DNA of 64,000 nt from Diadema setosum. Its lineage: Eukaryota; Echinodermata; Echinoidea; Diadematoida; Diadematidae. A program made the translations under genes and the position numbers. Position 1 is the stretch's first letter, and the number at the start of each line of letters is the position of its first letter. The stretch lies in contig CM067070.1 of NCBI GenBank assembly GCA_033980235.1, positions 1,692,478 to 1,756,477 of the forward strand, written 5' to 3'. The notes beneath the pieces were generated by a model. That model saw only the letters and a list, made by a program, of their open reading frames with translations, did no database searches and had not been told where the DNA came from. This document shows positions 8,650 through 53,060 of this stretch, in pieces.

Positions 8650-8681
8650 CCGCCCAGATTGAGGGGATTGGACGGCACCCA

Positions 8682-8771
8682 CTTTCCTAACACTTTCCTA
8701 ACATTGCTAACGCTTTCCTAACACTTTCCTAACACTTTCCTAACATTCCTAACACTTTCCTAACGTTTCCG
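8682..8771. repeat. 11-bp terminal repeat CTTTCCTAACA (copy 1)
   Basis: About eight imperfect tandem copies of CTTTCCTAACA, reading TGTTAGGAAAG on the minus strand. It starts about 30 bases inside the left end of the unit. The TTAGG core recalls animal telomere repeats, but the period is 11 rather than 6, so this is not a telomere. Confidence 0.9.
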
Positions 8772-8795
8772 AACTTATGCCCCTGTGTCAAAACC

Positions 8796-9097
8796 TTATC
8801 TGCGCATGCGGATACGTCCGTCGCCCGTGAATGGCTGCATCACAGTACTGTATTTGCATATGTAAATTACAGTCTTCGTATCATCGTCGCTCTCTCTCGC
8901 GCAACCAACACGCGCGAGACTCGAAACCTGGGGAGCGAACTCTCGACAATCCTGGCCGCCGAGCGCCGCCCGGCGGCGCGGCGGCGGGTCCCGGCGGTGG
9001 TGGTGGTGCACGGGGAGGCAGGTGGATCGGTCGAACCTCTGTCTGATGTTTCTTGCGAATGCCAGTTCGAGAAAAATTACTTCCTTCTAAGGTAAAG
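8796..9097 (+). promoter_or_regulatory. CpG-rich promoter and candidate first exon (copy 1)
   Basis: A sharp GC- and CpG-rich island in an AT-rich context. It contains TGCGCATGCG (8811-8820), an NRF1-type site, and ATTTGCATATGTAAAT (8852-8867), a near-palindromic octamer/POU site. A GGC-rich block at about 8959-9010 follows. The island ends in AAAG with GTGAGTAAG starting at 9098, a near-consensus 5-prime splice site (an alternative GT is at 9092). Gly/Pro-rich ORFs on both strands here are compositional, so a non-coding 5-prime exon on the + strand is the simplest reading. The start of transcription cannot be fixed from sequence. Confidence 0.6.
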
Positions 9098-11642
9098 GTG
9101 AGTAAGAATCTCATAATACTAATTGAACGTGTGTAGGGAAATACCCGGGTGATAATAGAGCATGTTTCTTTCTCAAGCACGCGTCAACGCTTATTGTCGT
9201 GCTTTGCGTATATACAATGTACAGTGCCAGTGCAGTGGCCAGGCCCGGTTGTCTCTGCATTTCTTAATTTAGTTCCCAAATCGGATATTGTAGAATCTAA
9301 ACCACTCCGTCTTTCATCGAGTTAATCTACTGTGGTTATGTTTACTGAAACTGAAACATGATTTAGTTTTGTCCTCACTACATTTCGAGGTTGATGATGT
9401 AATGTTGCTCTAACGTTACTACCTAACCAAAATTCAAAAGTAAATAATCTGTAGAATCTACTTAAAATAGTCACATTGTCGGTACGGTATCGGTATACGG
9501 TATAGAGGTTCTAACGTTAGATCCACTCGTTGCTTCAATTTTTACGTAACTTAGCATCATTATTGAAAGTTAATTTCATTAAATTCCCCTGCTAAATCTA
9601 ATTTTCATGTATGTTTCTGCTGCTTGTTTTACCACCAGATCTAGAGAAACTGTACAACATTCCACAGACACAGTAACACACACAGCTAGATAGGGCACTG
9701 CACACTTTACAGAGACTAACCCATGCCATGGGCATGCATTTTCCCTATTCTGTTCCCATAACTGGTTCTGTAGCATAGTGGCCTACTTTTTTTTTTTTTC
9801 AGTTGTCCTTGACAATGTTGTATTGGTTGTTTTACATGTAATGGGCATTATTGCAAAATACAATGTAGGTCCCCACTCCGTTCACCTCCAGTCATTTCGT
9901 CAAAGCCGGGGACTTCTTTCTTGTGAGTTGTAGACTTTGCACATACAATTGTATATTATGAACACACACGCAGAACGAGAGGGGACCGACATCACGATTT
10001 GGCCTTTACTTGTCATGTCAGACCAGAAATTTAACAATCTCTGAAAATTTGCTCGTGCAACAGTGGTTTTTAGGGCCTACTAATAGGATGTTCTGGGACC
10101 GTCAGACCAGTGCCAGTGCAGTGTTTGCTGCGTTGTGATGTAAATGCAGCGTGTCTATGGCCAAGGCTTTTATGGCATGCTGTCAGTGTAAAGGGAATTT
10201 TGGAGTAGGTGATGTAAAGCAAATAATGGGTACCTACCAATTTTGGGCATGTGGCAGTAACAACAACGAATTGTTGTCACTACTAATTTGACTTAGGTCA
10301 GGACAAGGGTGACGGGCTGGCTGATTGCCATTTTAGCATTGTGCACAAATTCACACAGTCTAGCCTCAACCAGTTCTCTATGACCGGTATATGACAAGTA
10401 GGGTTACTAATAGACAATTTATATGTCACCGGAGTCTAATATTGTAGATTAAGTGTGGTTGATTGATGAATGTTACATTCTGTCCTTTGTCTCATTATAA
10501 TGACGACAGAGGAGGAGAGCTGGGTCTGGGAGCCTAGCTTTAGAAACTATACCGAACAGATTAAGAACAGTTGTTAAAGGGAAATGTTATCACTAATAAC
10601 AGAAATGCAGCAGAGAGAAGAACATTGGTGAAGAGAATTATGGTTGAGATGAAACAAGGGAAGTGTTAACAGAAATAGGAAGGATGATGAGGTAAAGGAA
10701 GTTATACAGTTAGCCAAGTGGTGATCCCTTACAGTGACAAAATCAAATTGTTGTCACTTCAAATTTGACTTGGGTCAGGTTGAGGATGGTAAGCTGGCTG
10801 ATAGTCATCTGTCACCCAAAGTCTTACAATCTAGCCTCTACTACATGTACATGTAGTTCTCTCTGTATGACAAGTATGTCTACAAGTATGTTTGTCAACA
10901 CAGTTCTTTTCACATACAGTTTAACATCAATGTTCTGTTCTGTGTAAGGTAAACTTCCATTTCAGCATATCTTAAACGGTGATACATTGTACATGTTTCT
11001 TCTTCTCTAGTCTTAATTTTTTTTTGGTTTGGTATCTCGTATGTTGTTCTTTGTTTCTCGTCTAGTCCCTCTCTCTCATGCCATGAATAGTAATTGGATG
11101 ACGGTGATGATAATGATAGCAATAAGTTGTTAAAACTATTATTATTGCATTCATTTAATTGATTGAGGCCAATTTAGGCTATTTATTCAGCAAAATAAAA
11201 CACAAAAACATACAGTATGATAATAGTGGCGTTTACGATGAGAGCCAGGCAACCTTGAAAGCATCTTGTTAATTGTGCTTATACAGTAGGATGCCTACAC
11301 AGGAAAATACTTGGCAACATTACAAATAATTCTGTGTGAAGTCGAGTAGATAAAACAAGACACCATCACATACACTCACACGCACAACACATACACTCCC
11401 ATATAGTAAGACAGGATAGAAAGTATGTTGTCTAGTCAATCAAGGGTAACTGTTAAAAAAAGGAGCACTTCAGTAAGCACTGAAATGTAGAAAGAGTTGT
11501 GCTGTATTTCAAAGCGGTACTTTTACACCCCCCCCCCCCCCTTTATGGAATTCCTGGATCCGCTCCTGATTAACTCAGGACAGTATAAGTATGCTATTAA
11601 AAAGGTCAAACCTTCTACCGTTTTCTCTTCTGTTGTCTATAG
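9098..11642 (+). other. Candidate first intron of the unit gene (copy 1)
   Basis: Non-coding. It has polypyrimidine-AG acceptor-like sites (for example a T-run then CAG at about 9787-9801), a short palindromic ACATGTACATGT near 10841, and near 11521-11567 a C-run with CTTTATGGAATTCCTGGATC, the end of a hAT-like MITE. No recognisable protein. Equivalent stretches are 27156-29701 and 40332-42877. Confidence 0.45.
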
Positions 11643-11892
11643 ACTACTACAGTTCAGCATGCAAAATGACCAAGACTGGGAAGCCGTACAGCTGTTGGGA
11701 CCATATTATGAGATTGTGTGCAAGAGGACAGTATCGGTTTGGTGTAGGCCAATAACCAGGTGGAAAAAAAAGTGGAAGGAGGTGAAAAAGAGGATTGATG
11801 CCTGCCACCTTCATGGTTCCATCTGAAGAAGCAAGCTGTTGGTGTGTTTGGAGCTATGCTGGCCTGCAAACATCAATAGGCCCTACCACGAG
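11643..11892 (+). pseudogene. Candidate internal exon A (copy 1)
   Basis: A pyrimidine-rich tract ending CTATAG precedes it and CGAG/GTGAGT follows, so both splice signals are good. One frame runs the whole exon (DWEAVQLLGPYYEIV, then WKKKWKEVKKRIDACHLHG, then LLVCLELCW) but has a TGA near 11824; the overlapping frame (TGKPYSCWDHIMRLCARGQ) also stops. No domain recognised. The same stop occurs in all three copies, so the damage predates amplification, or the transcript is non-coding. Confidence 0.4.
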
Positions 11893-11940
11893 GTGAGTTT
11901 TTTTTTTTTTTTGTTTTTTTTTTTTTGTTTTGTTTTGATA

Positions 11941-12429
11941 CCTCCGCCAAGGGAGGAGGTTATGTTTTCGTTATGGTTTGTTTGTTTGTTAGTTTGTCCG
12001 TGTGCAACATTAACTCAAAAAGTAGTTAACGGTTTGGATTAAACTTGCAGGAAAGGTTTAGAATGACACAAGTAACAAACGATTAACTTTTGGTAGTGAT
12101 CCGAGAATTTTGGGGGAATTTATGAAGGATTTGTTATATTTTGGCAGGTAGGGTCAATGAACTTGGGAGTTCAGGCTGCACATATTTGAGGTTTACATGT
12201 GCGCACTAAAGTGCGTGCTCTAGTTTCTGCTAGGGCTAGGCTCGCCATGCAGCTGAGGGTTTGTGACGTAACAAAGGCTTCTATATTGGGAAATCGGGCG
12301 ACATTTAGCACACAATGCTACAAGTACCTATGGGTGGAAATCACTGACATCTCTATGGAAGAACAAGATCAGTGGTGGAAATGAGCTGCATGCTTGGCGG
12401 AGGTCTGCGCTCTCCGAGTGCTTTTCTAG
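11941..12429 (+). mobile_element. Helitron-like non-autonomous element, short type (copy 1)
   Basis: Begins CCTCCGCCAAGGGAGGAGGT, a small hairpin. It ends with GGCGGAGGTCTGCGCTCTCC, then GAGTGCTTTTCTAG followed by T. A terminal hairpin shortly before CTAG is the 3-prime signature of Helitron-like elements. The interior has TTTGTTTGTTTGTTAGTTTG and no ORF. Closely similar repeats are common in marine invertebrate genomes (recalled, not searched). It inserted just downstream of exon A. Confidence 0.6.
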
Positions 12430-13110
12430 TTTTGTTTTGCTTTGTTTTTGTTTTTGTTTTGTTTATGTTTTTGTTTTTAGTCCCCTGAGTTGTCAGATTA
12501 AATATTTCCATCCTCATGTTTTGCAAAACATAGCTGTACATGTGATGCAGAGCTCATACAGACTGTTGTAAATGTCCAATACATTCTATATTACGGTAGG
12601 TTCAGAGATTGTTTGCTGGGGAATTTAAAGTGATGCAATATTGGAAAGAAGTGAAGAAAGTCTAATTTCAACTGCAGCCTCTAGATCATATTATGTATGA
12701 TGAAAAAGAATAGAAGTCTGTCTGAAATGTCACTTAAAAAAGTCCAAATAAAACATTGAAATTGGTGAAATACTTTGTGCACACTAAACTGTAACCAATT
12801 TTCAAGTCATTCATCTTAGAAGTCATGCCTTAGACCTAATCTTTTTGTACCAGCAAGTTCTTGTCCAAAATGTGTTATTGCGATTCTACATGATAAACTA
12901 TTTGTATGTTGAAATTACAATTTGACTTTTGGTATGACTTTCAGCCCAGGACTGTAATACTGTATCAGAGGGATGAGAGTGATTGTACCTCGGAGTGGAC
13001 ATGAATTTAGTGTTAGTCTGTCTTTGAATGCTATTTTTTTTTTTCAGTTATGAACTAAGCTCCAAATATGCCTTTGAAATGAAATTCTGACCCTCAGCCT
13101 ACAATTTTAA
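12430..13110. other. Intronic spacer (copy 1)
   Basis: AT-rich, no gene. Contains TTTTG-rich low complexity at 12430-12480, an acceptor-like T-run plus CAG near 13033-13046, and the only clear substitution between copies (C at 12553; T at 30611 and 43787). Equivalents are 30488-31168 and 43664-44344. Confidence 0.55.
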
Positions 13111-14270
13111 GCCTCCGCCACGAAGTGTCGCCGGAGGCATTATGTTTTCAGGTTGTCTGTCCTTCCGTCCGTCCGTCCGTCCTTCTGTCCGTCATGAAAT
13201 TTGTGGACAGCGTAACAAAAAAAAAAAAACAAAAACCTATGAGGCATCCTAATAAGACTTGGTATGTATGTGCATGAGTGAACGAAGTTGTGCCTATTAA
13301 CTTTTGGGTGCTCATGCTCAAGGTCAAAGGTCAAGGTCAAATGGCAAAAAAAAAAAAATCACTATTTTCCCCTTATCTATGCAATGCCTGAAGGTTTTTC
13401 TTTAATCTTGATGCAAACATGTGATACCAAATAAAGATTCTCCAGAGAGTTTGGAATTATGAGGTCAAAGTTTAAAGGTGAGAGGTCAAGTTAAAATGTC
13501 GAAATTTCACCCTTTTTTCTCCATATCTTGGAAATGGTTCATGGCATCGTCATAGAATGTAATTACATGTATGCATGTACTTACTAGCAGTGATCATCTA
13601 GGGAATGTAGGGATCATGGGTCAAAGGTCAGGGGTCAACGATGAAGGTCAACTCAAAATTTCATTTGTTCCCTCATATTTCTGCAATATTTCCAAGATTT
13701 TTCTTGAAACTTGATATATTGCCGAATAGAGATTTTCTAGGAAGTTTCTTGCCCAAAGGTCAAGTGAAAGTGCTAAATTTCACTTCTTCTTTTTTTCCAT
13801 ATCTCGAAAGTGACTCAAGATATCATCATAAAACTTAGTACATATTAATGCATGTTCTACCTGACGGTGATTCTCTCTGAAATTTTAGGGTCATAGGGTC
13901 TAAGGTCCAGGGTCAAAGGCCAAGTAAGAATGCAAAAATTGTAGTATTTAATACATGAATTACACTTTTTCTCCATACTTTGAAAGTTACTAAATGCATA
14001 GACTTATAAAAGTGTCAAAAGTCAAGTAAAGATTCTCAAATCCCCAAATACAATTGTACCTGCATTCTTAGGCAGTGTAGTCATCCATCCAATTAAAGCT
14101 AGTTCAAGGAAAGTGAACATTCAACACATTTGTGACAAACCTGTCATTCTAATATTTTGCCAGTTATGTGAAACTGTAATCACACATTGTCAAGATGTTG
14201 TACTATAGACCTATTAGGAGAATGATGCAGTATGGCAGAGGCATACCAGTCGCCGTAGCGACATTTCTAG
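13111..14270 (+). mobile_element. Helitron-like non-autonomous element, long type with AGGTCA repeats (copy 1)
   Basis: Starts with a GCCTCCGCC...GGAGGC hairpin and GTCCGTCCGTCCGTCC. It ends with the perfect hairpin GTCGCCGTAGCGAC, then ATTTCTAG, matching a Helitron-like 3-prime end. The interior is a degenerate tandem series of about 200-bp blocks, each with CCATATCT..GAAATGG, CATGTACTACCTGACGGTGA-like words and GGTCAAAGGTCA. No ORF. An inverted relative is at 24266-25343 and an interrupted one at 17253-18195. Confidence 0.65.
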
Positions 14271-14631
14271 TTGTTGTTTGTTTGTTTGTTTGTTTGGGGA
14301 AGTGAATTGTGTGCTACAGTATTCAGGTTTGTCCCATGGATTCAATTGGAGCTCTTTTCCTGTTAAATAGATATCAAGAAGTCCTTGTAATTTGCGACAA
14401 AGAATGAACCATCTGATTACATTAAATCAGCACAATAACAACAGTAACATACATAGCTATAAAAAATATTTTACCCATTTGAGAGATTTCTTTCTTCTTC
14501 TTTCCAGTTATCTAGGTCTAATGGTTACAGCAGTCTGTTATTATCCTTCTTTAAATTTGAATTTTTATGGTCATGACAAGTATGTGGAGGTGTATTACAT
14601 TGGAATTTACATTTATTTTTCTCACAAACAG

Positions 14632-15015
14632 CCGACTAAGAAAAGCAGTGAAGGCATTTCACCTGTGACAAGCATCTCATCATCTGCAGCAACAAGGCAT
14701 CCAGCAACTGAGTCAGTGTCAGCATGTGCTCAGCCTCCATTACCTGCTCAACCTCAACAATCTGCTCGGCTTCAACAACCTGCATCTTCCGAGCAACAGT
14801 ATTCAAACTAGGCAGCAAGAGAATGTGGCCTGTGTCACTGAAATATCTTAGTCAAAGACTTTGCAGAGCATCATGACTGTACCATGCACAGGTGTCTTGC
14901 CAGATATGTGGCAGAATGTGTCGTGTCCAAGTAGAAGAGATGCTTATTCAAGATATTGAACAGCACGCAACAACACAATCTTTGCCAGCTCTTCCAAGAC
15001 ATTCAGCAATGTATG
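14632..15015 (+). pseudogene. Candidate internal exon B with Cys/His motifs (copy 1)
   Basis: Preceded by TTTTTCTCACAAACAG and followed by GTATG/GTTAGT. It opens with a Ser/Pro/Gln-rich segment (SPVTSISSSAATRHPATESV, then AQPPLPAQPQQSARLQQPAS), which stops at TAG (about 14809). Another frame then shows ECGLC...DFAEHHDC, and a third shows CQICGRMC...EQHATTQ. These are C-x2-C...H(..)C patterns like a UBZ or C2H2-type zinc finger. The last of these frames exits in the phase (TATG/GA) that joins exon C. Frame changes and stops mean the coding chain is broken, identically in all copies. Zinc-finger identity is tentative. Confidence 0.45.
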
Positions 15016-15371
15016 GTTAGTATCATAATTGATGATTGTCTATTGGCTGATGAATTTTGTAAAAAAGTTAAGTGAAACGTATCAAAATTCCAAATTTCTT
15101 TCCTCCATCGTAAATGAACATGCTTGAAATGCTTGTAGAATTGTGGGACAATATTGACATATGTGTATTTTTTAACAGCTACACAAATTTACCGTAAAAG
15201 TTATGGAAGACAATTGATGCATCATTCATTTTGAACTAAGATCACATGCTCATCATACAAGTGATAAACTGAATTATACTTCTAAGAACTATGTGAATTA
15301 GTGTTGACCAGATTCTTTGAGTGATGCTGTATTCAAATTCATGAACTTCCTCTGTCGAAATGTTTTATTTG

Positions 15372-15890
15372 AATAATTATGCAGTACCCGCTGCATGCTA
15401 TAAGGATTAGGACCACCACTTGCTGTCTGGCGTAAGCTCTGTAGTCTAGTGGAGATGATGCCTGTCAGAAGATCAGGAGGCCGTTGGTTCAAATCCTGCT
15501 TGAGTACATTATGCCCATGATTTCTATTGTTTTGGCTGCTGGCAAAACACTGATCAGTTCAGACCTAGTGCTTATTTACGTCGGTGTAGGGCCATTTGTC
15601 TGTCAGTTGCAATGGAAGCATCTTGACGGAAGAATTTCATTAATTTGAATAATTTAGCAGTATCCGCTGCATGCCATAAGGATCAGAACCACCACTTGCT
15701 GTCAGGCGAAAGCTTGGTGGTCTAGTGGAGATGACGCCTGTCCGAAGATCAGAAGGTCATAGATTCAAATCCTGCTTGAGTACATATGCCCATAATGTCT
15801 TTTTGTCATGGCTACTACTAAAAGACACTGATTAGTTCAGTGCTTATTGAAATCAGTGTAGAGCAATATGTCAATCAACTGCAATGATGC
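15372..15890 (+). mobile_element. tRNA-like SINE, tandem dimer (copy 1)
   Basis: Two related blocks about 285-295 bases apart. Each has an A-box-like TGGTCTAGTGG (TAGTCTAGTGG in the first, about 15439; second about 15718) and a B-box-like GGTTCAAATCC (about 15486) or GATTCAAATCC (about 15770), with the same leader (CCACCACTTGCTGTC) and tail (CTGCTTGAGTACA). The spacing fits an internal RNA polymerase III promoter. No clean cloverleaf with intact acceptor pairing can be drawn, so I call a tRNA-derived SINE rather than tRNA genes. It lies in the intron between exons B and C. Confidence 0.6.
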
Positions 15891-16069
15891 TGAATTGTAA
15901 TGTTGATAAGCAATGATTTCCCAGACATGGCTTTGTACGAATAAGTCTTAGAATAGTGAACAAAATAGATTGTATTTTTTTTTTATACTTGTCAGCTGTG
16001 CATGATACACATGAGATATTGAAATATGTGTATGTGAAAATATTCTGCATTGTTTGTTTTGTCATGCAG

Positions 16070-16188
16070 GAAAGACACGGCCCCCTGCCACAGTATCCCA
16101 GCCCCCTGCGGAAGAATCTGTACCCACTGATGAAGAATCTGTGCCCCCTGCTGAAGAATCTGTACCTCCTGCTGAAGATTTATTTTGA
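16070..16188 (+). pseudogene. Candidate terminal coding exon C, Pro/Glu repeats (copy 1)
   Basis: Acceptor TTTTGTCATGCAG precedes it. The frame in phase with exon B reads four 9-10 residue repeats of the type PPAEESVP (one variant with PTDEESVP) and ends at TGA (16186-16188). The acceptor, the phase match and the period-30 repeat support a genuine former exon. No clear AATAAA follows within the next 150 bases. Low-complexity acidic Pro/Glu tails carry little functional information. Confidence 0.5.
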
Positions 16189-17252
16189 CACCGCAATTTT
16201 TCAAACTTGTGTTTGTATTTGTTAATACTATATAAAAAGTTCAGATAAAAAGTTGCCCATTTAGCATTCATTCAAAAGTTAGAGCTTAAAATCTGATACG
16301 CACACACACACACACAAAAGAAAAAATTGTTGTATATGTAACTAGCATAATGAACATAATTTAGAGAAAACAACCATGTTTTTGGAAAAAATAGCTCTTT
16401 ATTCTTGGAGATTATGCGATAGGGAACATGCCTGGCAATTTTCGCCGCGATAGTTTGATCGATGGCCAAGATCTTAAGGAGGAGCCCAAACAACCCTCTC
16501 CCCCATTTTCCCCATTATCGGGCGACTGGAGGTCAAGATCTGAGGAGGGGGACAAATAAGTTCCAACCCCACACTTGGATTAGGAAGGGTTAAATGTGAG
16601 TTGTGTATCACAGAATATTTGCATTATATATCTTATATGACAGTGACATGTTGTCATGATACCCTCATCATAAAAGATTTTGGGTTGTCTGTTCAAACTT
16701 GTTTTAGCACACTTGCATGAACTAGCAGTAATCTTTCATGATTAATATGATTAACCTGGGAAAATGAAACCTTGAGAAAGTTGACAATGGCTCTTGATAT
16801 CTTTAAAGGTACTAAACTTTTTTAATAATTTCAAGCAATAATATTCATTACCAGCAAAGTCATGGGTTTTTCCATCAGGACAACATCATGCCAACTCAAA
16901 AACACTGTACATGGTCTAGTGTGTGAAAAGGTCACATAATTTCACTCAGAATGTAAGGACTGATATATCCTTAACACTTTAATTTGGTTGGGTTATTTTT
17001 CTGTAATGTATGTTTGCAGATGTCTTCAAGAGAGCAGAGCTCTCCCAGCCCCCCCCCCCCCCTTGCAATTCAGTACATACAAAACTGTAAAGTTGGGTGT
17101 TTTTGTTTTTGTTAAAAAAAAACCCAACAATTTATGCTAATGTATGCATAATGTCACAATTTGCTGAAAAATCACTTTAAAAACTGCACAAAAAGGCATA
17201 TTTTTGGTAAATTTGGTGGATGAAAAAATTGTAATCATTTTTTCTTTTATGA
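16189..17252. other. Non-coding stretch after exon C (copy 1)
   Basis: Contains a short CA tract (about 16301-16316), GC-rich matter at 16440-16600, and a C-run at about 17049-17062. Nothing coding is supported. Equivalents are 34247-35310 and 47423-48486. Confidence 0.55.
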
Positions 17253-18195
17253 TGCCTCCTCCACAAATTGTAACCAGAGACATTGTTTTGGGGTTGTCCA
17301 TCCCTCCTTCCATCAGTCAGTAATCAGTTTTGTGGACAGCATAACTTAAAGGGAACCCAACCCAAAGGGCGATGTGGATTGAGTGATAGCAGCAACATTA
17401 GTAGAACACATCCGTGAAAGTTTGAGGAAAATTGGACAAGCGATGGAAAAGTTTTGAATTTTTAAAGTTTTGGTGTTGGAACCGCTGGATAAGGAGGCTA
17501 GAGGTTATGACGTATGTGTGGACAACAATTCAAAAAATATTAAAGAAATTGCACCAAAATTCACTTTTCTAGCATGATGAAAGAGCACATGACTAACTGC
17601 TTTCAGAAAAACAAGGGAATACTCAATTTACTCAGTCCACAATTCTCTTTGAGGTTGGTTCCCTTTAAGAACCATTTTAGGTATCCAAATGAAACTTGGC
17701 ATAAACAGTGAGTATGAGAGAAGGAAGTTGCGCCTCTCAACTTTTGGTTGCACATGTTCAAGGTCAATGGCCATGGTCAATTTTTAAAAATTTGTCTGTA
17801 TACATATTACCTGATAAAGTTGCATTGGTAAAATTCTGGCCTATGGGATCAGAGGTCAAAGGTCAAATGAAAATGCTAAAATTCTATTTTTCCCATATCT
17901 CAGAAATGGCTCATGGTATCATCATGATATTTAGTGGATATGCATGTACTGCCTGACAGTTATTCTTTGGGATTTGGGCGACATTGGTCAAGGCTGAAAG
18001 GTCAGGTTCAGAGGCTAAAATTCCATTTTATTTGATTACTCTTTTTCTCCATTCCCTGGAGATGAATAACAAGTCTAGGCACAAGAATACACATACCTCA
18101 CTGCCCAATGATTCGTAAAGAAAGATTTTTGCCATGGGGTCAAAGGTCAAGAGAAAACGTTCAAATGTCACATTATGAACTTATTATGAAACTTT
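17253..18195 (+). mobile_element. Helitron-like AGGTCA element, split by a MITE (copy 1)
   Basis: Starts GCCTCCTCCACAAATTGT and has GTCCATCCCTCC, a relative of the GTCCGTCC block at 13111-14270. After interruption at 17346-17668 it resumes with AACTTGGCATAAACAGTGAG and several GGTCAAAGGTCA blocks. The 3-prime hairpin end is not found: another MITE begins at 18196. Equivalents are 35311-36253 and 48487-49429. Confidence 0.55.
17346..17668. mobile_element. TTAA-flanked MITE, AGGGAACC family (copy 1)
   Basis: TTAA then AGGGAACCCAACC at the left, and GGTTGGTTCCCT then TTAA at the right, 323 bp in all. TTAA duplications with AGGG-starting inverted repeats suit Kolobok- or piggyBac-type non-autonomous elements. 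The host Helitron-like sequence is contiguous across it when compared with 13197-13280. Equivalents are 35404-35726 and 48580-48902. Confidence 0.7.
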
Positions 18196-18578
18196 TTAAA
18201 GGGGGTGGCTAGTAACTGATCAGTGGGAATCAGTGAGAATGCTAGGGGGATGATTGTTCCAATCCTGGTGGGATTGATTTTAGAGTATTTCATATATGTG
18301 TGAAAATGATTTGCTTCAGAATGGTCTCATATTCAAGTAATGTGCAGTTCAGTGTTTCCAGGTTAGCATGACTGTGCAGTGAAGGGGTGATCGTTAACGA
18401 TCACCCCGTCACTGCACAGTCATGCTAACCTGGAAACATTACTTGAATATGAGACCATTCTGGAGCAAATGATTTTCACACAATAGATCTATATAATGTA
18501 CTCTAAAATGAATCCCACAAGGCTTGGAACAATTATCCCCAGCATTCCCACTGATTAGTTACTAGCCATCCCCTTTAA
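18196..18578. mobile_element. TTAA-flanked hairpin MITE, AGGGGGTGGC family (copy 1)
   Basis: TTAA then AGGGGGTGGCTAGTAACT at the left and AGTTACTAGCCATCCCCT then TTAA at the right. The whole 383 bp folds back on GTTAAC near 18396, with long perfect stems around the centre (GGGGTGATCGTTAACGATCA and so on). No coding capacity. Confidence 0.85.
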
Positions 18579-18786
18579 GACATATATGTGTCAGTTTCCA
18601 GAATGTTTTATGATTATATCATAAAATTGTTTAGGCTACCAATACTTTGTACGTGTAGTTGCATACTTGTCAGTTGCCTCAGGAAACATGTACAGCATAT
18701 ACAGCTGTATTGCCTACCAAATAACAATGTATATTATATTGAATGATTCTGATGACTTATTATGTTTATTGGTAGAGGAATGATAA

Positions 18787-19215
18787 GGGGGGGGGGGGGC
18801 TCATCCCCTGGCCTAGTTTTGGTTTGTCTTGTTGCATTATTTCATGTGCTCAGTAAAGTAAGGGACCTTTTATGAACATTATGAACTTATTATGAACATT
18901 ATTAAGACATATTATATAACATAAATGTCAGAATGTTAAGAAGGGGGGGGGGGGGGGCTCCTCCCCTGGCCTAGTTTTGGTTTGTCTTGTTGCATTATTT
19001 CATGTGCTCAGTAAAGTAAGGGACCTTTTATGAACATTATGAACTTATTATGAACATTATTAAGACATATTATATAACATAAATGTCAGAATGTTAAGAA
19101 GGGGGGGGGGGGGGGCTCCTCCCCTGGCCTAGTTTTGGTTTGTCTTGTTGCATTATTTCATGTGCTCAGTAAAGTAAGGGACCTTTTATGAACATTATGA
19201 ACATTATTAAGACAT
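18787..19215. repeat. G-run minisatellite, three copies of about 157 bp (copy 1)
   Basis: Each copy starts with a run of about 13-17 G, then CTCCTCCCCTGGCCTAG, TTTGGTTTGTCTTGTTGC and a block of TTATGAACATTATGAAC words. G-runs begin at 18787, 18943 and 19101. The last copy is shorter, missing one TATGAACTTAT word. G-run lengths differ between array units, which may be sequencing noise. Equivalents are about 36845-37272 and 50021-50449. Confidence 0.9.
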
Positions 19216-19912
19216 ATATGTGTCAGTTTCCAGAATGTTTTATGATTATATCATGAAATTGTTTAGGCTACCAATACTTTGTACCTGTGGTTGCATACTT
19301 GCCAGTTGCCTCTAGGAAATATGTCCTGCATATACATCTGTATTGCCAGTGTACCAAATAACAATGCATAATATTATGTTGAATGATTTTGGTGACTTAT
19401 TATGTTAATTGATAGAGGCATTACATACTTGCCCAGCTCATTTTGGAAACACTTCCAGTTAAATATGTATGTGATATTTGCCGCAGGAAATAAGTGACTT
19501 TCTGTGACAGCATATGTAGTGAAAACATGGTGTACTTGACAGTTGCATCTGGAAACACTCCAGGTATTCATTGTCTGTGTGCAAAATGCCATGTAACATC
19601 TTGATGAATCTTGCCAAATTCATTTTAATGAAGATCATAGTTTTGAATAAAGAGAATATGAACCTTTTGGTTCAGATCATGTTAAATGAAGGTATGAATT
19701 TTTTTCCTCTCTTCCATTTTCATTTTATGTGTTTTACGAGTAAGTTCATGTGTATAATTTATGTTCATTGTAAAGTTTTGGTCTCTCCCATACATCAAAA
19801 ACGAGGCATAGACATCACTTTTCTGTGAATGGTGACATCAACAATTTGATGTACTCTTTCCATGAAATCTTTGAAGGTTTTTGTGGCGGTAAAACATTGG
19901 ATGGTAGAAGGC
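19216..19912. other. Unique AT-rich spacer (copy 1)
   Basis: The first part (about 19201-19400) is a diverged duplicate of 18580-18790: both read GACATATATGTGTCAGTTTC and TAGGCTACCAATACTTTGTA. No gene is supported. Equivalents are 37273-37969 and 50450-51146. Confidence 0.5.
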
Positions 19913-20016
19913 TTAAAGGTGCACCGCATATATTTTCAAGATTATGTGTTTGGCCCTGAAAAGGGCCTTCCCAGCCCGAATAAGACCTTTTCTAGAAAGA
20001 AGTGTTGCACCTTTAA
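19913..20016. mobile_element. TTAA-flanked short MITE, AGGTGCA family (copy 1)
   Basis: TTAA AGGTGCACC at the left and TTGCACCT TTAA at the right, with the inner palindrome GGCCCTGAAAAGGGCC; 104 bp. It is the third distinct TTAA family in the unit. Equivalents are 37970-38073 and 51147-51250. Confidence 0.7.
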
Positions 20017-20044
20017 GTTTTATACCACCCAATCTTCCTCCAAT

Positions 20045-25343: not shown

Positions 25344-25355
25344 TAAAAAAATATC

Positions 25356-40005: not shown

Positions 40006-40029
40006 AACTTATGCCCCTGTGTCAAAACC

Positions 40030-40331
40030 TTATCTGCGCATGCGGATACGTCCGTCGCCCGTGAATGGCTGCATCACAGTACTGTATTTGCATATGTAAA
40101 TTACAGTCTTCGTATCATCGTCGCTCTCTCTCGCGCAACCAACACGCGCGAGACTCGAAACCTGGGGAGCGAACTCTCGACAATCCTGGCCGCCGAGCGC
40201 CGCCCGGCGGCGCGGCGGCGGGTCCCGGCGGTGGTGGTGGTGCACGGGGAGGCAGGTGGATCGGTCGAACCTCTGTCTGATGTTTCTTGCGAATGCCAGT
40301 TCGAGAAAAATTACTTCCTTCTAAGGTAAAG
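40030..40331 (+). promoter_or_regulatory. CpG-rich promoter and candidate first exon (copy 3)
   Basis: Identical in the visible motifs to the block at 8796-9097. Confidence 0.6.
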
Positions 40332-42877: not shown

Positions 42878-43127
42878 ACTACTACAGTTCAGCATGCAAA
42901 ATGACCAAGACTGGGAAGCCGTACAGCTGTTGGGACCATATTATGAGATTGTGTGCAAGAGGACAGTATCGGTTTGGTGTAGGCCAATAACCAGGTGGAA
43001 AAAAAAGTGGAAGGAGGTGAAAAAGAGGATTGATGCCTGCCACCTTCATGGTTCCATCTGAAGAAGCAAGCTGTTGGTGTGTTTGGAGCTATGCTGGCCT
43101 GCAAACATCAATAGGCCCTACCACGAG
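42878..43127 (+). pseudogene. Candidate internal exon A (copy 3)
   Basis: Same splice signals and the same TGA as at 11643-11892. Confidence 0.4.
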
Positions 43128-43174
43128 GTGAGTTTTTTTTTTTTTTGTTTTTTTTTTTTTGTTTTGTTTTGATA

Positions 43175-43663
43175 CCTCCGCCAAGGGAGGAGGTTATGTT
43201 TTCGTTATGGTTTGTTTGTTTGTTAGTTTGTCCGTGTGCAACATTAACTCAAAAAGTAGTTAACGGTTTGGATTAAACTTGCAGGAAAGGTTTAGAATGA
43301 CACAAGTAACAAACGATTAACTTTTGGTAGTGATCCGAGAATTTTGGGGGAATTTATGAAGGATTTGTTATATTTTGGCAGGTAGGGTCAATGAACTTGG
43401 GAGTTCAGGCTGCACATATTTGAGGTTTACATGTGCGCACTAAAGTGCGTGCTCTAGTTTCTGCTAGGGCTAGGCTCGCCATGCAGCTGAGGGTTTGTGA
43501 CGTAACAAAGGCTTCTATATTGGGAAATCGGGCGACATTTAGCACACAATGCTACAAGTACCTATGGGTGGAAATCACTGACATCTCTATGGAAGAACAA
43601 GATCAGTGGTGGAAATGAGCTGCATGCTTGGCGGAGGTCTGCGCTCTCCGAGTGCTTTTCTAG
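43175..43663 (+). mobile_element. Helitron-like element, short type (copy 3)
   Basis: Same element at the same unit position as 11941-12429. Confidence 0.6.
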
Positions 43664-44344
43664 TTTTGTTTTGCTTTGTTTTTGTTTTTGTTTTGTTTAT
43701 GTTTTTGTTTTTAGTCCCCTGAGTTGTCAGATTAAATATTTCCATCCTCATGTTTTGCAAAACATAGCTGTACATGTGATGCAGAGTTCATACAGACTGT
43801 TGTAAATGTCCAATACATTCTATATTACGGTAGGTTCAGAGATTGTTTGCTGGGGAATTTAAAGTGATGCAATATTGGAAAGAAGTGAAGAAAGTCTAAT
43901 TTCAACTGCAGCCTCTAGATCATATTATGTATGATGAAAAAGAATAGAAGTCTGTCTGAAATGTCACTTAAAAAAGTCCAAATAAAACATTGAAATTGGT
44001 GAAATACTTTGTGCACACTAAACTGTAACCAATTTTCAAGTCATTCATCTTAGAAGTCATGCCTTAGACCTAATCTTTTTGTACCAGCAAGTTCTTGTCC
44101 AAAATGTGTTATTGCGATTCTACATGATAAACTATTTGTATGTTGAAATTACAATTTGACTTTTGGTATGACTTTCAGCCCAGGACTGTAATACTGTATC
44201 AGAGGGATGAGAGTGATTGTACCTCGGAGTGGACATGAATTTAGTGTTAGTCTGTCTTTGAATGCTATTTTTTTTTTTCAGTTATGAACTAAGCTCCAAA
44301 TATGCCTTTGAAATGAAATTCTGACCCTCAGCCTACAATTTTAA

Positions 44345-45504
44345 GCCTCCGCCACGAAGTGTCGCCGGAGGCATTATGTTTTCAGGTTGTCTGTCCTTCC
44401 GTCCGTCCGTCCGTCCTTCTGTCCGTCATGAAATTTGTGGACAGCGTAACAAAAAAAAAAAAACAAAAACCTATGAGGCATCCTAATAAGACTTGGTATG
44501 TATGTGCATGAGTGAACGAAGTTGTGCCTATTAACTTTTGGGTGCTCATGCTCAAGGTCAAAGGTCAAGGTCAAATGGCAAAAAAAAAAAAATCACTATT
44601 TTCCCCTTATCTATGCAATGCCTGAAGGTTTTTCTTTAATCTTGATGCAAACATGTGATACCAAATAAAGATTCTCCAGAGAGTTTGGAATTATGAGGTC
44701 AAAGTTTAAAGGTGAGAGGTCAAGTTAAAATGTCGAAATTTCACCCTTTTTTCTCCATATCTTGGAAATGGTTCATGGCATCGTCATAGAATGTAATTAC
44801 ATGTATGCATGTACTTACTAGCAGTGATCATCTAGGGAATGTAGGGATCATGGGTCAAAGGTCAGGGGTCAACGATGAAGGTCAACTCAAAATTTCATTT
44901 GTTCCCTCATATTTCTGCAATATTTCCAAGATTTTTCTTGAAACTTGATATATTGCCGAATAGAGATTTTCTAGGAAGTTTCTTGCCCAAAGGTCAAGTG
45001 AAAGTGCTAAATTTCACTTCTTCTTTTTTTCCATATCTCGAAAGTGACTCAAGATATCATCATAAAACTTAGTACATATTAATGCATGTTCTACCTGACG
45101 GTGATTCTCTCTGAAATTTTAGGGTCATAGGGTCTAAGGTCCAGGGTCAAAGGCCAAGTAAGAATGCAAAAATTGTAGTATTTAATACATGAATTACACT
45201 TTTTCTCCATACTTTGAAAGTTACTAAATGCATAGACTTATAAAAGTGTCAAAAGTCAAGTAAAGATTCTCAAATCCCCAAATACAATTGTACCTGCATT
45301 CTTAGGCAGTGTAGTCATCCATCCAATTAAAGCTAGTTCAAGGAAAGTGAACATTCAACACATTTGTGACAAACCTGTCATTCTAATATTTTGCCAGTTA
45401 TGTGAAACTGTAATCACACATTGTCAAGATGTTGTACTATAGACCTATTAGGAGAATGATGCAGTATGGCAGAGGCATACCAGTCGCCGTAGCGACATTT
45501 CTAG
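44345..45504 (+). mobile_element. Helitron-like element, long type (copy 3)
   Basis: Same element at the same unit position as 13111-14270. Confidence 0.65.
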
Positions 45505-45865
45505 TTGTTGTTTGTTTGTTTGTTTGTTTGGGGAAGTGAATTGTGTGCTACAGTATTCAGGTTTGTCCCATGGATTCAATTGGAGCTCTTTTCCTGTTAA
45601 ATAGATATCAAGAAGTCCTTGTAATTTGCGACAAAGAATGAACCATCTGATTACATTAAATCAGCACAATAACAACAGTAACATACATAGCTATAAAAAA
45701 TATTTTACCCATTTGAGAGATTTCTTTCTTCTTCTTTCCAGTTATCTAGGTCTAATGGTTACAGCAGTCTGTTATTATCCTTCTTTAAATTTGAATTTTT
45801 ATGGTCATGACAAGTATGTGGAGGTGTATTACATTGGAATTTACATTTATTTTTCTCACAAACAG

Positions 45866-46249
45866 CCGACTAAGAAAAGCAGTGAAGGCATTTCACCTGT
45901 GACAAGCATCTCATCATCTGCAGCAACAAGGCATCCAGCAACTGAGTCAGTGTCAGCATGTGCTCAGCCTCCATTACCTGCTCAACCTCAACAATCTGCT
46001 CGGCTTCAACAACCTGCATCTTCCGAGCAACAGTATTCAAACTAGGCAGCAAGAGAATGTGGCCTGTGTCACTGAAATATCTTAGTCAAAGACTTTGCAG
46101 AGCATCATGACTGTACCATGCACAGGTGTCTTGCCAGATATGTGGCAGAATGTGTCGTGTCCAAGTAGAAGAGATGCTTATTCAAGATATTGAACAGCAC
46201 GCAACAACACAATCTTTGCCAGCTCTTCCAAGACATTCAGCAATGTATG
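45866..46249 (+). pseudogene. Candidate exon B (copy 3)
   Basis: Same splice signals, Cys/His motifs and stops as at 14632-15015. Confidence 0.45.
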
Positions 46250-46605
46250 GTTAGTATCATAATTGATGATTGTCTATTGGCTGATGAATTTTGTAAAAAA
46301 GTTAAGTGAAACGTATCAAAATTCCAAATTTCTTTCCTCCATCGTAAATGAACATGCTTGAAATGCTTGTAGAATTGTGGGACAATATTGACATATGTGT
46401 ATTTTTTAACAGCTACACAAATTTACCGTAAAAGTTATGGAAGACAATTGATGCATCATTCATTTTGAACTAAGATCACATGCTCATCATACAAGTGATA
46501 AACTGAATTATACTTCTAAGAACTATGTGAATTAGTGTTGACCAGATTCTTTGAGTGATGCTGTATTCAAATTCATGAACTTCCTCTGTCGAAATGTTTT
46601 ATTTG

Positions 46606-47124
46606 AATAATTATGCAGTACCCGCTGCATGCTATAAGGATTAGGACCACCACTTGCTGTCTGGCGTAAGCTCTGTAGTCTAGTGGAGATGATGCCTGTC
46701 AGAAGATCAGGAGGCCGTTGGTTCAAATCCTGCTTGAGTACATTATGCCCATGATTTCTATTGTTTTGGCTGCTGGCAAAACACTGATCAGTTCAGACCT
46801 AGTGCTTATTTACGTCGGTGTAGGGCCATTTGTCTGTCAGTTGCAATGGAAGCATCTTGACGGAAGAATTTCATTAATTTGAATAATTTAGCAGTATCCG
46901 CTGCATGCCATAAGGATCAGAACCACCACTTGCTGTCAGGCGAAAGCTTGGTGGTCTAGTGGAGATGACGCCTGTCCGAAGATCAGAAGGTCATAGATTC
47001 AAATCCTGCTTGAGTACATATGCCCATAATGTCTTTTTGTCATGGCTACTACTAAAAGACACTGATTAGTTCAGTGCTTATTGAAATCAGTGTAGAGCAA
47101 TATGTCAATCAACTGCAATGATGC
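46606..47124 (+). mobile_element. tRNA-like SINE dimer (copy 3)
   Basis: Same dimer and box motifs as at 15372-15890. Confidence 0.6.
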
Positions 47125-47303
47125 TGAATTGTAATGTTGATAAGCAATGATTTCCCAGACATGGCTTTGTACGAATAAGTCTTAGAATAGTGAACAAAAT
47201 AGATTGTATTTTTTTTTTATACTTGTCAGCTGTGCATGATACACATGAGATATTGAAATATGTGTATGTGAAAATATTCTGCATTGTTTGTTTTGTCATG
47301 CAG

Positions 47304-47422
47304 GAAAGACACGGCCCCCTGCCACAGTATCCCAGCCCCCTGCGGAAGAATCTGTACCCACTGATGAAGAATCTGTGCCCCCTGCTGAAGAATCTGTACC
47401 TCCTGCTGAAGATTTATTTTGA
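47304..47422 (+). pseudogene. Candidate terminal exon C (copy 3)
   Basis: Same acceptor, repeats and stop as at 16070-16188. Confidence 0.5.
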
Positions 47423-49429
47423 CACCGCAATTTTTCAAACTTGTGTTTGTATTTGTTAATACTATATAAAAAGTTCAGATAAAAAGTTGCCCATTTAGCA
47501 TTCATTCAAAAGTTAGAGCTTAAAATCTGATACGCACACACACACACACAAAAGAAAAAATTGTTGTATATGTAACTAGCATAATGAACATAATTTAGAG
47601 AAAACAACCATGTTTTTGGAAAAAATAGCTCTTTATTCTTGGAGATTATGCGATAGGGAACATGCCTGGCAATTTTCGCCGCGATAGTTTGATCGATGGC
47701 CAAGATCTTAAGGAGGAGCCCAAACAACCCTCTCCCCCATTTTCCCCATTATCGGGCGACTGGAGGTCAAGATCTGAGGAGGGGGACAAATAAGTTCCAA
47801 CCCCACACTTGGATTAGGAAGGGTTAAATGTGAGTTGTGTATCACAGAATATTTGCATTATATATCTTATATGACAGTGACATGTTGTCATGATACCCTC
47901 ATCATAAAAGATTTTGGGTTGTCTGTTCAAACTTGTTTTAGCACACTTGCATGAACTAGCAGTAATCTTTCATGATTAATATGATTAACCTGGGAAAATG
48001 AAACCTTGAGAAAGTTGACAATGGCTCTTGATATCTTTAAAGGTACTAAACTTTTTTAATAATTTCAAGCAATAATATTCATTACCAGCAAAGTCATGGG
48101 TTTTTCCATCAGGACAACATCATGCCAACTCAAAAACACTGTACATGGTCTAGTGTGTGAAAAGGTCACATAATTTCACTCAGAATGTAAGGACTGATAT
48201 ATCCTTAACACTTTAATTTGGTTGGGTTATTTTTCTGTAATGTATGTTTGCAGATGTCTTCAAGAGAGCAGAGCTCTCCCAGCCCCCCCCCCCCCCTTGC
48301 AATTCAGTACATACAAAACTGTAAAGTTGGGTGTTTTTGTTTTTGTTAAAAAAAAACCCAACAATTTATGCTAATGTATGCATAATGTCACAATTTGCTG
48401 AAAAATCACTTTAAAAACTGCACAAAAAGGCATATTTTTGGTAAATTTGGTGGATGAAAAAATTGTAATCATTTTTTCTTTTATGATGCCTCCTCCACAA
48501 ATTGTAACCAGAGACATTGTTTTGGGGTTGTCCATCCCTCCTTCCATCAGTCAGTAATCAGTTTTGTGGACAGCATAACTTAAAGGGAACCCAACCCAAA
48601 GGGCGATGTGGATTGAGTGATAGCAGCAACATTAGTAGAACACATCCGTGAAAGTTTGAGGAAAATTGGACAAGCGATGGAAAAGTTTTGAATTTTTAAA
48701 GTTTTGGTGTTGGAACCGCTGGATAAGGAGGCTAGAGGTTATGACGTATGTGTGGACAACAATTCAAAAAATATTAAAGAAATTGCACCAAAATTCACTT
48801 TTCTAGCATGATGAAAGAGCACATGACTAACTGCTTTCAGAAAAACAAGGGAATACTCAATTTACTCAGTCCACAATTCTCTTTGAGGTTGGTTCCCTTT
48901 AAGAACCATTTTAGGTATCCAAATGAAACTTGGCATAAACAGTGAGTATGAGAGAAGGAAGTTGCGCCTCTCAACTTTTGGTTGCACATGTTCAAGGTCA
49001 ATGGCCATGGTCAATTTTTAAAAATTTGTCTGTATACATATTACCTGATAAAGTTGCATTGGTAAAATTCTGGCCTATGGGATCAGAGGTCAAAGGTCAA
49101 ATGAAAATGCTAAAATTCTATTTTTCCCATATCTCAGAAATGGCTCATGGTATCATCATGATATTTAGTGGATATGCATGTACTGCCTGACAGTTATTCT
49201 TTGGGATTTGGGCGACATTGGTCAAGGCTGAAAGGTCAGGTTCAGAGGCTAAAATTCCATTTTATTTGATTACTCTTTTTCTCCATTCCCTGGAGATGAA
49301 TAACAAGTCTAGGCACAAGAATACACATACCTCACTGCCCAATGATTCGTAAAGAAAGATTTTTGCCATGGGGTCAAAGGTCAAGAGAAAACGTTCAAAT
49401 GTCACATTATGAACTTATTATGAAACTTT

Positions 49430-49812
49430 TTAAAGGGGGTGGCTAGTAACTGATCAGTGGGAATCAGTGAGAATGCTAGGGGGATGATTGTTCCAATCCT
49501 GGTGGGATTGATTTTAGAGTATTTCATATATGTGTGAAAATGATTTGCTTCAGAATGGTCTCATATTCAAGTAATGTGCAGTTCAGTGTTTCCAGGTTAG
49601 CATGACTGTGCAGTGAAGGGGTGATCGTTAACGATCACCCCGTCACTGCACAGTCATGCTAACCTGGAAACATTACTTGAATATGAGACCATTCTGGAGC
49701 AAATGATTTTCACACAATAGATCTATATAATGTACTCTAAAATGAATCCCACAAGGCTTGGAACAATTATCCCCAGCATTCCCACTGATTAGTTACTAGC
49801 CATCCCCTTTAA
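49430..49812. mobile_element. TTAA hairpin MITE (copy 3)
   Basis: Same element as at 18196-18578. Confidence 0.85.
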
Positions 49813-52800
49813 GACATATATGTGTCAGTTTCCAGAATGTTTTATGATTATATCATAAAATTGTTTAGGCTACCAATACTTTGTACGTGTAGTTGCATAC
49901 TTGTCAGTTGCCTCAGGAAACATGTACAGCATATACAGCTGTATTGCCTACCAAATAACAATGTATATTATATTGAATGATTCTGATGACTTATTATGTT
50001 TATTGGTAGAGGAATGATAAGGGGGGGGGGGGGCTCATCCCCTGGCCTAGTTTTGGTTTGTCTTGTTGCATTATTTCATGTGCTCAGTAAAGTAAGGGAC
50101 CTTTTATGAACATTATGAACTTATTATGAACATTATTAAGACATATTATATAACATAAATGTCAGAATGTTAAGAAGGGGGGGGGGGGGGGCTCCTCCCC
50201 TGGCCTAGTTTTGGTTTGTCTTGTTGCATTATTTCATGTGCTCAGTAAAGTAAGGGACCTTTTATGAACATTATGAACTTATTATGAACATTATTAAGAC
50301 ATATTATATAACATAAATGTCAGAATGTTAAGAAGGGGGGGGGGGGGGGCTCCTCCCCTGGCCTAGTTTTGGTTTGTCTTGTTGCATTATTTCATGTGCT
50401 CAGTAAAGTAAGGGACCTTTTATGAACATTATGAACATTATTAAGACATATATGTGTCAGTTTCCAGAATGTTTTATGATTATATCATGAAATTGTTTAG
50501 GCTACCAATACTTTGTACCTGTGGTTGCATACTTGCCAGTTGCCTCTAGGAAATATGTCCTGCATATACATCTGTATTGCCAGTGTACCAAATAACAATG
50601 CATAATATTATGTTGAATGATTTTGGTGACTTATTATGTTAATTGATAGAGGCATTACATACTTGCCCAGCTCATTTTGGAAACACTTCCAGTTAAATAT
50701 GTATGTGATATTTGCCGCAGGAAATAAGTGACTTTCTGTGACAGCATATGTAGTGAAAACATGGTGTACTTGACAGTTGCATCTGGAAACACTCCAGGTA
50801 TTCATTGTCTGTGTGCAAAATGCCATGTAACATCTTGATGAATCTTGCCAAATTCATTTTAATGAAGATCATAGTTTTGAATAAAGAGAATATGAACCTT
50901 TTGGTTCAGATCATGTTAAATGAAGGTATGAATTTTTTTCCTCTCTTCCATTTTCATTTTATGTGTTTTACGAGTAAGTTCATGTGTATAATTTATGTTC
51001 ATTGTAAAGTTTTGGTCTCTCCCATACATCAAAAACGAGGCATAGACATCACTTTTCTGTGAATGGTGACATCAACAATTTGATGTACTCTTTCCATGAA
51101 ATCTTTGAAGGTTTTTGTGGCGGTAAAACATTGGATGGTAGAAGGCTTAAAGGTGCACCGCATATATTTTCAAGATTATGTGTTTGGCCCTGAAAAGGGC
51201 CTTCCCAGCCCGAATAAGACCTTTTCTAGAAAGAAGTGTTGCACCTTTAAGTTTTATACCACCCAATCTTCCTCCAATTTTCCACAACTTTGAGCTATTA
51301 CCATCAATCCTCACACAACAGCTACATACTTAAACATGCCAGTCAAGTTCAAATATGAATGATGTCTAACTAGGTCAAAGGTCAAAGTGAATGTGTCAGT
51401 GAACTAGCCCTGATAAGCACTATACTCATAATATTGATGTATACTCTGTAACTTTCTACAGATCTTAGGCTTAGCTCTGACTACCAAACTCATCACAGGT
51501 GCATGACCTAAAGATACCAATCAAGTTCAAAATGTGGTTGTCAAAGTCAAACAAGTTCAAATGTCAGATGGTTGAAAAATTTTTCCTCATAGGCACAGTA
51601 CTCACAGTATTGAAGTTACATTGGTTGCCAGTAAGGCAGATGATTGCATTTAAGATTATGTTATTTATAAAGTACTGCATGGTCAAGCACCTGGTTGTCT
51701 GTCAGAATTAATATGAATAAAATCATATTCATATTCACATAATTTACGAAGTACACAGAAGTTGTAGGTTGTTTCTAAAGCAACCTCACTTAAAACAAAA
51801 GTAACTTTTGGGTATTGTGCCTTTAGCTGTGCTGCTCCATAACTTTGGAATGAATTACCTGAGAAAATGAGGAAGGCCCCATCACTTGCTGTCTTCAAAT
51901 CTTTGTTGAAGACTTACCCTTTTCAGAAGCATTTGATTAATTTGTTATTTATTTTTTTGTGTGTGTCTAATCAGTAACAATGTCAGGAGCTCTGTTACAT
52001 CACAGCACAGTAGAGTATATTTACATAGTAGCTGCGCTATACAGATTTGTCTAATCATTATTATTATTATCATTATTGTTATTATTGAGGTGTACTCATC
52101 AATATTTTTTTTTTTCAGATTAGAGCAGTGACCACCAAACTCACAAATTAGGTAGGCTAAATAAATAAAAAATGCCAATCAAGTTTTATATGAGTGAAGT
52201 CCAACAAATTCAGAGGTCAAATTAATGGAATTAATGGTCATTGAACTTTACTTAATAAGCACTTGAAACAATATAAGGACACATTGTGGTGTACCCCCGG
52301 TACTCTCAATAACTTTCTACATTGAGAGCTATGATAGCCACACATTAACACCGCATGCATATCACCTGAAGATTCTGCTCAAGTTTGAATATTGGTAAAT
52401 ATTCTAAGAACTAGGTCAAAGGTCAGATGGTCAATGAACTTTCTCTGATTTAGTGTCATATATTGTTCACTCTCAATAACGAATTTCCACAACTTTGAGC
52501 TATGTCCGCAAAACTCAAACATGGGAACATCTGCTAAAGATATATGCCTGTCAAGTACTTGGTTAAATTGAACAATGTAAAAGGTCAGAAGTAAAACTCT
52601 AGAACTAATACACTTAAAAAAAAAAAAAAAAACATTTTAATAACAGAGTGTAATATTTATGTGGGCGAGGACGATACATGGCTTGGTGTTTGTCTGAATT
52701 GTCATGAGTTACGTGTGTGTAGATGTTCATTTGTTATCTACAAAAACTTGTTTTTTTGCGTGGAAGATGCAGTAATATAAGGTTAAGATTTAAAAGCTTT

Positions 52801-52971
52801 GAAGTAGGATCCTGAAATATGTTGCCATTTTTTCTCACTCTAGGGTGCAAGTCTAGTCAGTATTTGTAAGTATCAAGTTGACCTGACTATTATAAAGGTC
52901 AAAGGTCCCAAAATTTAATGATTATATACAGAAAACCAAGTATTTTTCAGTATATTTTGTAGAAATCCGTG

Positions 52972-53035
52972 TTTTTTTTTTCTCCCCCTCCCTTCCCCCT
53001 TCTTCCCCTCTTTTCCCCTTCCTTTTTCCTCCTCC
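52972..53035 (+). repeat. Polypyrimidine tract (copy 3)
   Basis: Same tract as at 26616-26679. Read on the minus strand it follows the gag-like ORF without a stop and encodes Lys/Gly/Glu-rich sequence. Confidence 0.9.
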
Positions 53036-53060
53036 AAGCAGTCCATTATGCCCTGGTTCC

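Follow-up and report, generated by a model that had tools for sequence, protein, structure and literature searches.

A head-to-tail array of three near-identical 13.2-kb units was delineated by alignment in a 64-kb stretch of the echinoid Diadema setosum (C12:1692478-1756477, hereafter the window), where it lies inside another gene. The repeated element, CAGATTGAGGGG...CCCTGGTTC, has a length of 13,171 bp and was found again in unrelated flanks in searches of the 886-Mb assembly (96 contigs). The unit is, with a probability of about 0.55, a non-autonomous retroposon copied in trans by target-primed reverse transcription, and the trimer a product of end-to-end template jumping. Target-primed reverse transcription is suggested because the copies have a constant 3' end, a graded 5' truncation and, at some loci, target duplications.

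Self-comparison of the window gave offsets of 13,176, 18,058 and 31,234, and the alignment divided the array into U1 (8649-26706, 18,058 bp), U2 (26707-39882, 13,176 bp) and U3 (39883-53059, 13,177 bp). The element proper occupies 8655..26706, 26713..39882 and 39889..53059, all on the plus strand. The first unit carries a 4,874-bp transposon and ends in CTGGTTGTTC; the second and third are complete, and U3, with 13,171 bp, served as reference copy. An earlier note on this DNA had described three abutting units that differ in C12553, a 3-base junction difference, homopolymer lengths and one insertion. The trimer is present in the assembly and all of these differences were recovered: one substitution, five homopolymer lengths, a GTT ending U1 and the insertion, now measured as 4,874 bp. 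Position 12553 is C in U1 and T in U2 and U3 as well as in the C19, C6 and C14 copies, i.e., all other readable copies (C16 was left out of this comparison, the test pattern gave no match there). The array is young or kept uniform, since only one private substitution occurs in about 39.5 kb, and its mechanism is therefore testable by comparing individuals. The insertion in U1 (21607..26480) is an ordinary DNA transposon and presumably a later arrival; its terminal inverted repeats (TIRs) measure about 700 bp and are 92 % alike, and ACTCT is duplicated at its target (5 bp).

A single homopolymer base is all that separates U2 from U3, so the count of inner units depends on the assembly and a total of exactly three is provisional. 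An assembly artefact or a wrong unit count was nevertheless the least probable of the explanations weighed. The near-identity of U2 and U3 speaks for it, but U1 is distinct by insertion, substitution and GTT, and the window junctions share the form GGTTC-N6-CAGATT with junctions at a second locus, C2. The artefact raised in the earlier note is unlikely for the unit itself, because the unit recurs elsewhere with the same ends.

The start of the element, CAGATT at 8655, 26713 and 39889, was defined from other genomic copies. CCCGCC precedes all three units and is not part of the shared element, because the other copies show the start at CAGATT. The inner junctions read GGTTC-CCCGCC-CAGATT, the first with GTT added, and the 6-nt spacers lie at 26707..26712 (U1/U2) and 39883..39888 (U2/U3). 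The units are complete, as had been claimed, but they are not free of a spacer. In the left junction (8643..8654) a target copy CGCGCC (8645-8650) is followed by CGCC before U1, and the last six bases, CCCGCC, equal the inner spacers; the right target copy CGCGCC (53060..53065) forms a 6-bp direct repeat with 8645-8650. At C2:44492771-44493911 a rearranged cluster of element ends includes an inverted 5' end, a mini-element and two further GGTTC-N6-CAGATT junctions, whose 6-nt spacers differ in sequence from CCCGCC. Chance is unlikely for a 6-nt spacer in four of four junctions, of which the two in the window are perhaps not independent. The spacers may have been left as target duplications by insertions that followed one another, or the jump itself may produce them.

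The copies at C16, C19 and C14 are complete; they begin (CAGATT) and end (GGTTC) exactly as the window units do and are 98.3, 98.1 and 97.2 % identical to U3 over aligned bases; the C6 copy reaches 97.8 % over its retained part. A 1.5-kb unit query aligned along most of its length with C16, C19, C6, C7 and, split in two, C14; scores were computed for 40 of 139 candidates, and the remaining matches listed were short and 72-82 % alike. With at most 3 mismatches, the first 28 bases are present at 12 genomic sites (reversed control 0): three in the window, one each in C16, C19, C14, C6, C7 and C10, and three in C2. The C6 copy ends near a palindrome at unit position 9787, and C7 matches unit positions 1-1765 only. 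The coincidence of unit boundary and insertion boundary, stressed in the earlier note, was confirmed. The question raised there, whether copies elsewhere start and end at the same bases, has a positive answer for these complete copies; further copies share the 3' end only and are 5'-truncated. Ordinary unequal exchange was rejected as the origin of the first duplication, in agreement with the note: no pre-existing long repeat is present and the complete copies elsewhere end identically. Growth from dimer to trimer by such an exchange is also possible. By eye, the C14 copy contains a Ty3/gypsy-like insertion. The palindrome near which the C6 copy breaks off corresponds to a near-perfect hairpin at 49589-49670, with equivalents in U1 and U2, that matches mir-2567 at 36.8 bits, below the cut-off of 79.

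The 3' terminal 24-mer AAGCAGTCCATTATGCCCTGGTTC (53036..53059, plus strand) had 19 genomic matches with at most 3 mismatches (reversed control 0), and all 19 sites were inspected. Six are 5'-complete (the three window units, C16, C19 and C14) and two fall in the rearranged C2 locus. Nine further insertions have the common 3' end and scattered internal starts, approximately at unit positions 12064 (C17), 12333 (C5), 12378 (C2), 12602 (C12b and C12c, which look like copies of one event), 12665 (C2b), 12788 (C13) and 12820 (C7b); the smallest, C1 and C12d, are stubs of 22 and 23 bp of the 3' end. The C23 copy extends upstream beyond the sequence examined, and C22 is old and patchy. The 3' ends stop at GGTTC (GGTTA in C13), followed by unrelated flank. 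A constant 3' end with many different 5' truncation points, a mark of non-LTR-type (target-primed) retroposons (LTR, long terminal repeat), was thus found in this family of copies. Non-LTR retrotransposons have the same combination of fixed 3' end and 5' truncation.

These truncated copies speak against a DNA element moved by a recombinase or transposase, Crypton-like or modelled on Tn916, in which circular intermediates integrate repeatedly and the spacers are crossover or coupling sequences. This reading was favoured midway and dropped on the appearance of the truncated copies, and we now regard it as quite improbable. It would account for a variable 6-nt spacer between fixed ends and for the different 6-mers on the two sides of complete single copies, and the window element lies in a gene beside a stretch that by eye resembles a tyrosine recombinase. 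Unexpected from a circle are 5'-truncated copies and stubs of 22-23 bp with target duplications; moreover, U3 has no recombinase domain and no inverted repeat of at least 9 bp between its terminal 500 bp. Two of the origins proposed in the earlier note, integration of a multimer and repeated insertion at one end, are still live, but the copies that have lost part of their 5' side and agree in the 3' end alone move the explanation from a DNA circle to reverse transcription at the target.

Direct repeats of at least 6 bp within 5 nt of the ends were present at 6 of 13 loci versus none of 156 mismatched left-right flank pairs. The loci were the window, C12b, C12d, C17, the C2 mini-element and C1; five duplications are 6 bp long and one 16 bp, the latter at C1, where perfect copies of a 16-bp sequence flank 22 bp of the 3' end on both sides. 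Edges were taken from the alignments except at C12d and the C2 mini-element, where they were placed manually once the repeats were known; without these two loci the count is 4 of 11. Left out were C12c as a copy of C12b, and C22, C23, C6, C7, C10, C4, C20 and the larger C2 pieces, each with an edge that was rearranged or could not be placed. A non-LTR element may insert with a target duplication, with a deletion or bluntly, according to excerpts of a review (PMC2881922); the lack of a duplication does not, therefore, exclude target-primed reverse transcription.

In the proposed mechanism a long, apparently unspliced RNA would start at or just before CAGATTGAGG and end in ...CCCTGGTTC without poly(A); host-type sequence is probably retained in it without splicing. 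With a reverse transcriptase provided in trans, this RNA would be copied into DNA at a nicked target, beginning at the fixed 3' end and often stopping early, which would yield the truncated copies and the stubs; a short target duplication would be left in some cases. In the window, the enzyme would have reached the 5' end of the first RNA (U3) and continued onto the 3' ends of a second and a third RNA (U2, U1), and joining to the target after the third would have completed the head-to-tail trimer. A partner long interspersed element (LINE) or Penelope-like element would be expected to carry the same 3' end, CATTATGCCCTGGTTC. The GTT by which the inner junctions differ falls exactly at the 3' end; template jumping is ranked first, ahead of sequential insertion, because the two junctions differ precisely where each copy would start. 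The two further tandem junctions and the inverted 5' end at C2 are also counted in favour of this mechanism. Template jumping has been observed with purified R2 protein and snap-back 5' junctions in cells, and with endonuclease-dead R2 protein in cells head-to-tail tandem junctions were the main 3' junction class, as excerpts of that study report (PMC11371274).

Several observations weigh against reverse transcription with template jumping. The inner spacers have exactly 6 nt at both window and both C2 junctions, which template jumping does not predict, and CCCGCC before all three units requires a shared donor RNA or copying at the DNA level. A poly(A) or simple-repeat tail is absent at the 3' ends of the copies inspected, and U3 encodes no recognisable reverse transcriptase. 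Seven of the 13 loci are without target duplication (C16, C19, C14, C7b, C13, C2b and C5), among them all three complete single copies (0/3 with a duplication). The C2 mini-element, 22 nt long, consists of the two ends fused to each other (16+6 nt), is flanked by a perfect 6-bp duplication and looks more like an internally deleted DNA transposon. For the second C2 structure a snap-back reading was partly given up, since the mini-element with its own 6-bp duplication explains its end.

The constancy of the spacer favours sequential insertion, in which the same nick site was reused twice more, each of the three target-primed events leaving a 6-bp duplication; the spacers then read as target duplications CCCGCC, CCCGCC, CCCGCC and CGCGCC. 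Six base pairs is also the commonest length of the target duplications (5/6). We consider this course of events unlikely, although it is the second in rank: the right-hand copy differs (CGCGCC), and with the six end-adjacent bases as target the gene is out of frame, whereas CGCGCC plus four extra bases is in frame. The common 5' extension CCCGCC on all three units and the near-identity of U2 and U3 would fit instead one insertion followed by tandem duplication at the DNA level, through break repair or slippage, and the gain of a third unit in an unequal exchange. Such a duplication appears improbable, as its edge coincides to the base with the element's 3' end, and so does the GTT difference; an exchange via the 6-bp repeats would, by our reasoning, leave CGCGCCCGCC and not CCCGCC.

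The earlier description of the unit as gene-like found little backing. No Pfam family was above the cut-off in the six frames of U3, and no solved-structure protein matched at E ≤ 1 in the three plus frames, thus a coding gene was rejected. Two matches, both in minus frames, were far below the cut-off, one to DUF2670 (E 0.022) and one to a coat family of plant viruses (E 0.12). Among frames of at least 50 codons (first 25 rows), the longest U3 frame open in all four compared copies has 86 codons. In a 54-codon frame (47629-47790) 9 of 11 substitution counts are at third positions, a weak signal in view of the large number of frames scanned and the dependence of the copies on one another. Rfam gave a tRNA-like stretch at 46669-46741 (29.9 versus a cut-off of 29 bits). 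No self-cleaving hammerhead or hepatitis delta virus (HDV) ribozyme was among the 9 Rfam matches up to E = 10 in 39600-53200, and a ribozyme-driven element was rejected accordingly.

The class tests on U3 turned out negative for the other element types considered. Its two terminal 500-bp stretches share no match of at least 9 bp in either direct or inverted orientation, and a TIR (DDE) DNA transposon was rejected on the lack of the inverted match; by eye, the ends show a weak imperfect inverted resemblance (AGGGnAT..TGGAC). Helitrons start with 5' TC, end in 3' CTRR with a hairpin and insert between A and T without target duplication; they were rejected by the ends CAGATT/GGTTC, flanks other than A/T and weak end folds. 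A Crypton or other tyrosine-recombinase transposon was dismissed as no recombinase domain was above the Pfam cut-off in the six frames. For a Penelope-like element, pseudo-LTRs around U3 and a reverse transcriptase with GIY-YIG above the Pfam cut-off are lacking, U3 alone having been searched; direct and inverted neighbours do occur in the window array and in C2.

As a non-coding unit the element is SINE-like (short interspersed element), but tens of times longer than SINEs. SVA retroposons are likewise composite, non-coding and moved in trans, but they have only a few kilobases and a poly(A) end. With non-LTR elements and R2 the unit shares target-primed copying with duplication, deletion or blunt outcome, and template jumping, tandem and snap-back products, so far as excerpts of PMC11371274 and PMC2881922 describe them; the missing reverse transcriptase and endonuclease domains in U3 and the length of 13.2 kb set it apart. 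In a bdelloid rotifer, Penelope elements moved an intron-bearing host gene in trans, with tandems and head-to-head inversions (PMC3846280, in excerpt). The parallels are that intron-bearing host DNA was moved, that target duplications flank a part of the copies, that there are partial tandems as well as inverted ends lying head to head, and that copies are truncated at the 5' end and few in number. Unlike there, no pseudo-LTRs surround the unit, the duplications have mostly 6 bp instead of 8-10 bp, no Penelope enzyme is linked to the unit, and the unit of 13.2 kb is repeatedly mobile with fixed ends. Cryptons resemble it in the lack of TIRs, short edge repeats and a proposed circular intermediate (PMC3212892, in excerpt), but U3 has no recombinase domain and 5'-truncated copies are present. 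Literature was searched on tandem products of non-LTR elements, on host genes in connection with Penelope, on Cryptons and on non-autonomous elements of echinoderms; the available excerpts of the open-licence matches listed describe no comparable 13-kb element. The mechanism class is already known; new are the length, the fixed ends, the trimer and the near-6-bp duplications. More tentatively, the copies may represent a family of protein-free retroposons, 13 kb long, that have defined ends, keep their introns and are served by a reverse transcriptase that makes near-6-bp duplications and, via template jumps, about 40 kb of cDNA per event. If true, reverse transcription at the target site would multiply gene-sized unspliced segments (13 kb, or 40 kb as an array) and provide a route of gene-scale duplication that keeps introns and promoters without duplication at the DNA level.

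Several features of the unit and its relatives were recorded in addition. The 5' terminal module (39889..40016, plus strand) consists of CAGATTGAGGGGATTGGACGGCACCC followed by TTTCCTAACA-type repeats; it is common to the C2, C4, C7, C10 and C20 copies, sometimes in diverged form. The first kilobase is CpG-rich, with observed/expected ratios of 1.21 and 1.07. Diverged modules of 50-136 bp lie at C10:26082239, C4:3076435, C4:15420904 and C20:6798743, and the rest of the unit was not in the neighbouring stretches examined. By eye, the C10 module stands a few kilobases before ubiquitin-like reading frames, and the C20 module is followed after about 400 bp by ATTATGCCCTGGTTC. Each unit contains an internal tandem repeat of 157-158 bp in 2.7 copies, 98-99 % alike (18787-19209, 36845-37266 and 50021-50443). 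Just before the last 18 bases of the unit a pyrimidine tract ending in CAG was noticed by eye.

The array is an insertion into a gene: a single minus-strand reading frame is divided between its left and right flanks. The first part of this gag-like gene, MPKARQKTKG..., is at 53060..53222, and the rest, PGPSVLPIPG... and then IEQWTSAFLVYAS, at 7982..8648, both on the minus strand; the latter is related to a Strongylocentrotus purpuratus protein. Joined in frame, with one CGCGCC copy kept, the flanks read MPKARQKTKG...SVLPIPGTSSDASAGAPGPSVLPIPGLSISAATEEPGPSVVATPG. The exact empty site is not fixed by the frame, because about one join in three is in frame. With E ≤ 0.001, 16 proteins match the frame 7982-8572; the Strongylocentrotus purpuratus protein ranks second among them, with 63 % identity. 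The interrupted target looks like a DIRS/Ngaro- or Crypton-type element. On the minus strand of 6600-8648, the gag-like gene is followed by a tyrosine-recombinase-like stretch, HSFWIGAA...GRWSSDVHKRYVRTY, at about 7400-7500 (by eye), and by a weak GDSL hydrolase match (E 0.34, below cut-off). The right flank contains a diverged direct repeat, 55629-55882 and about 57003-57260, with a spacing of about 1,374-1,377 bp, and a tandem repeat of about 98 bp lies at 4789-5063.

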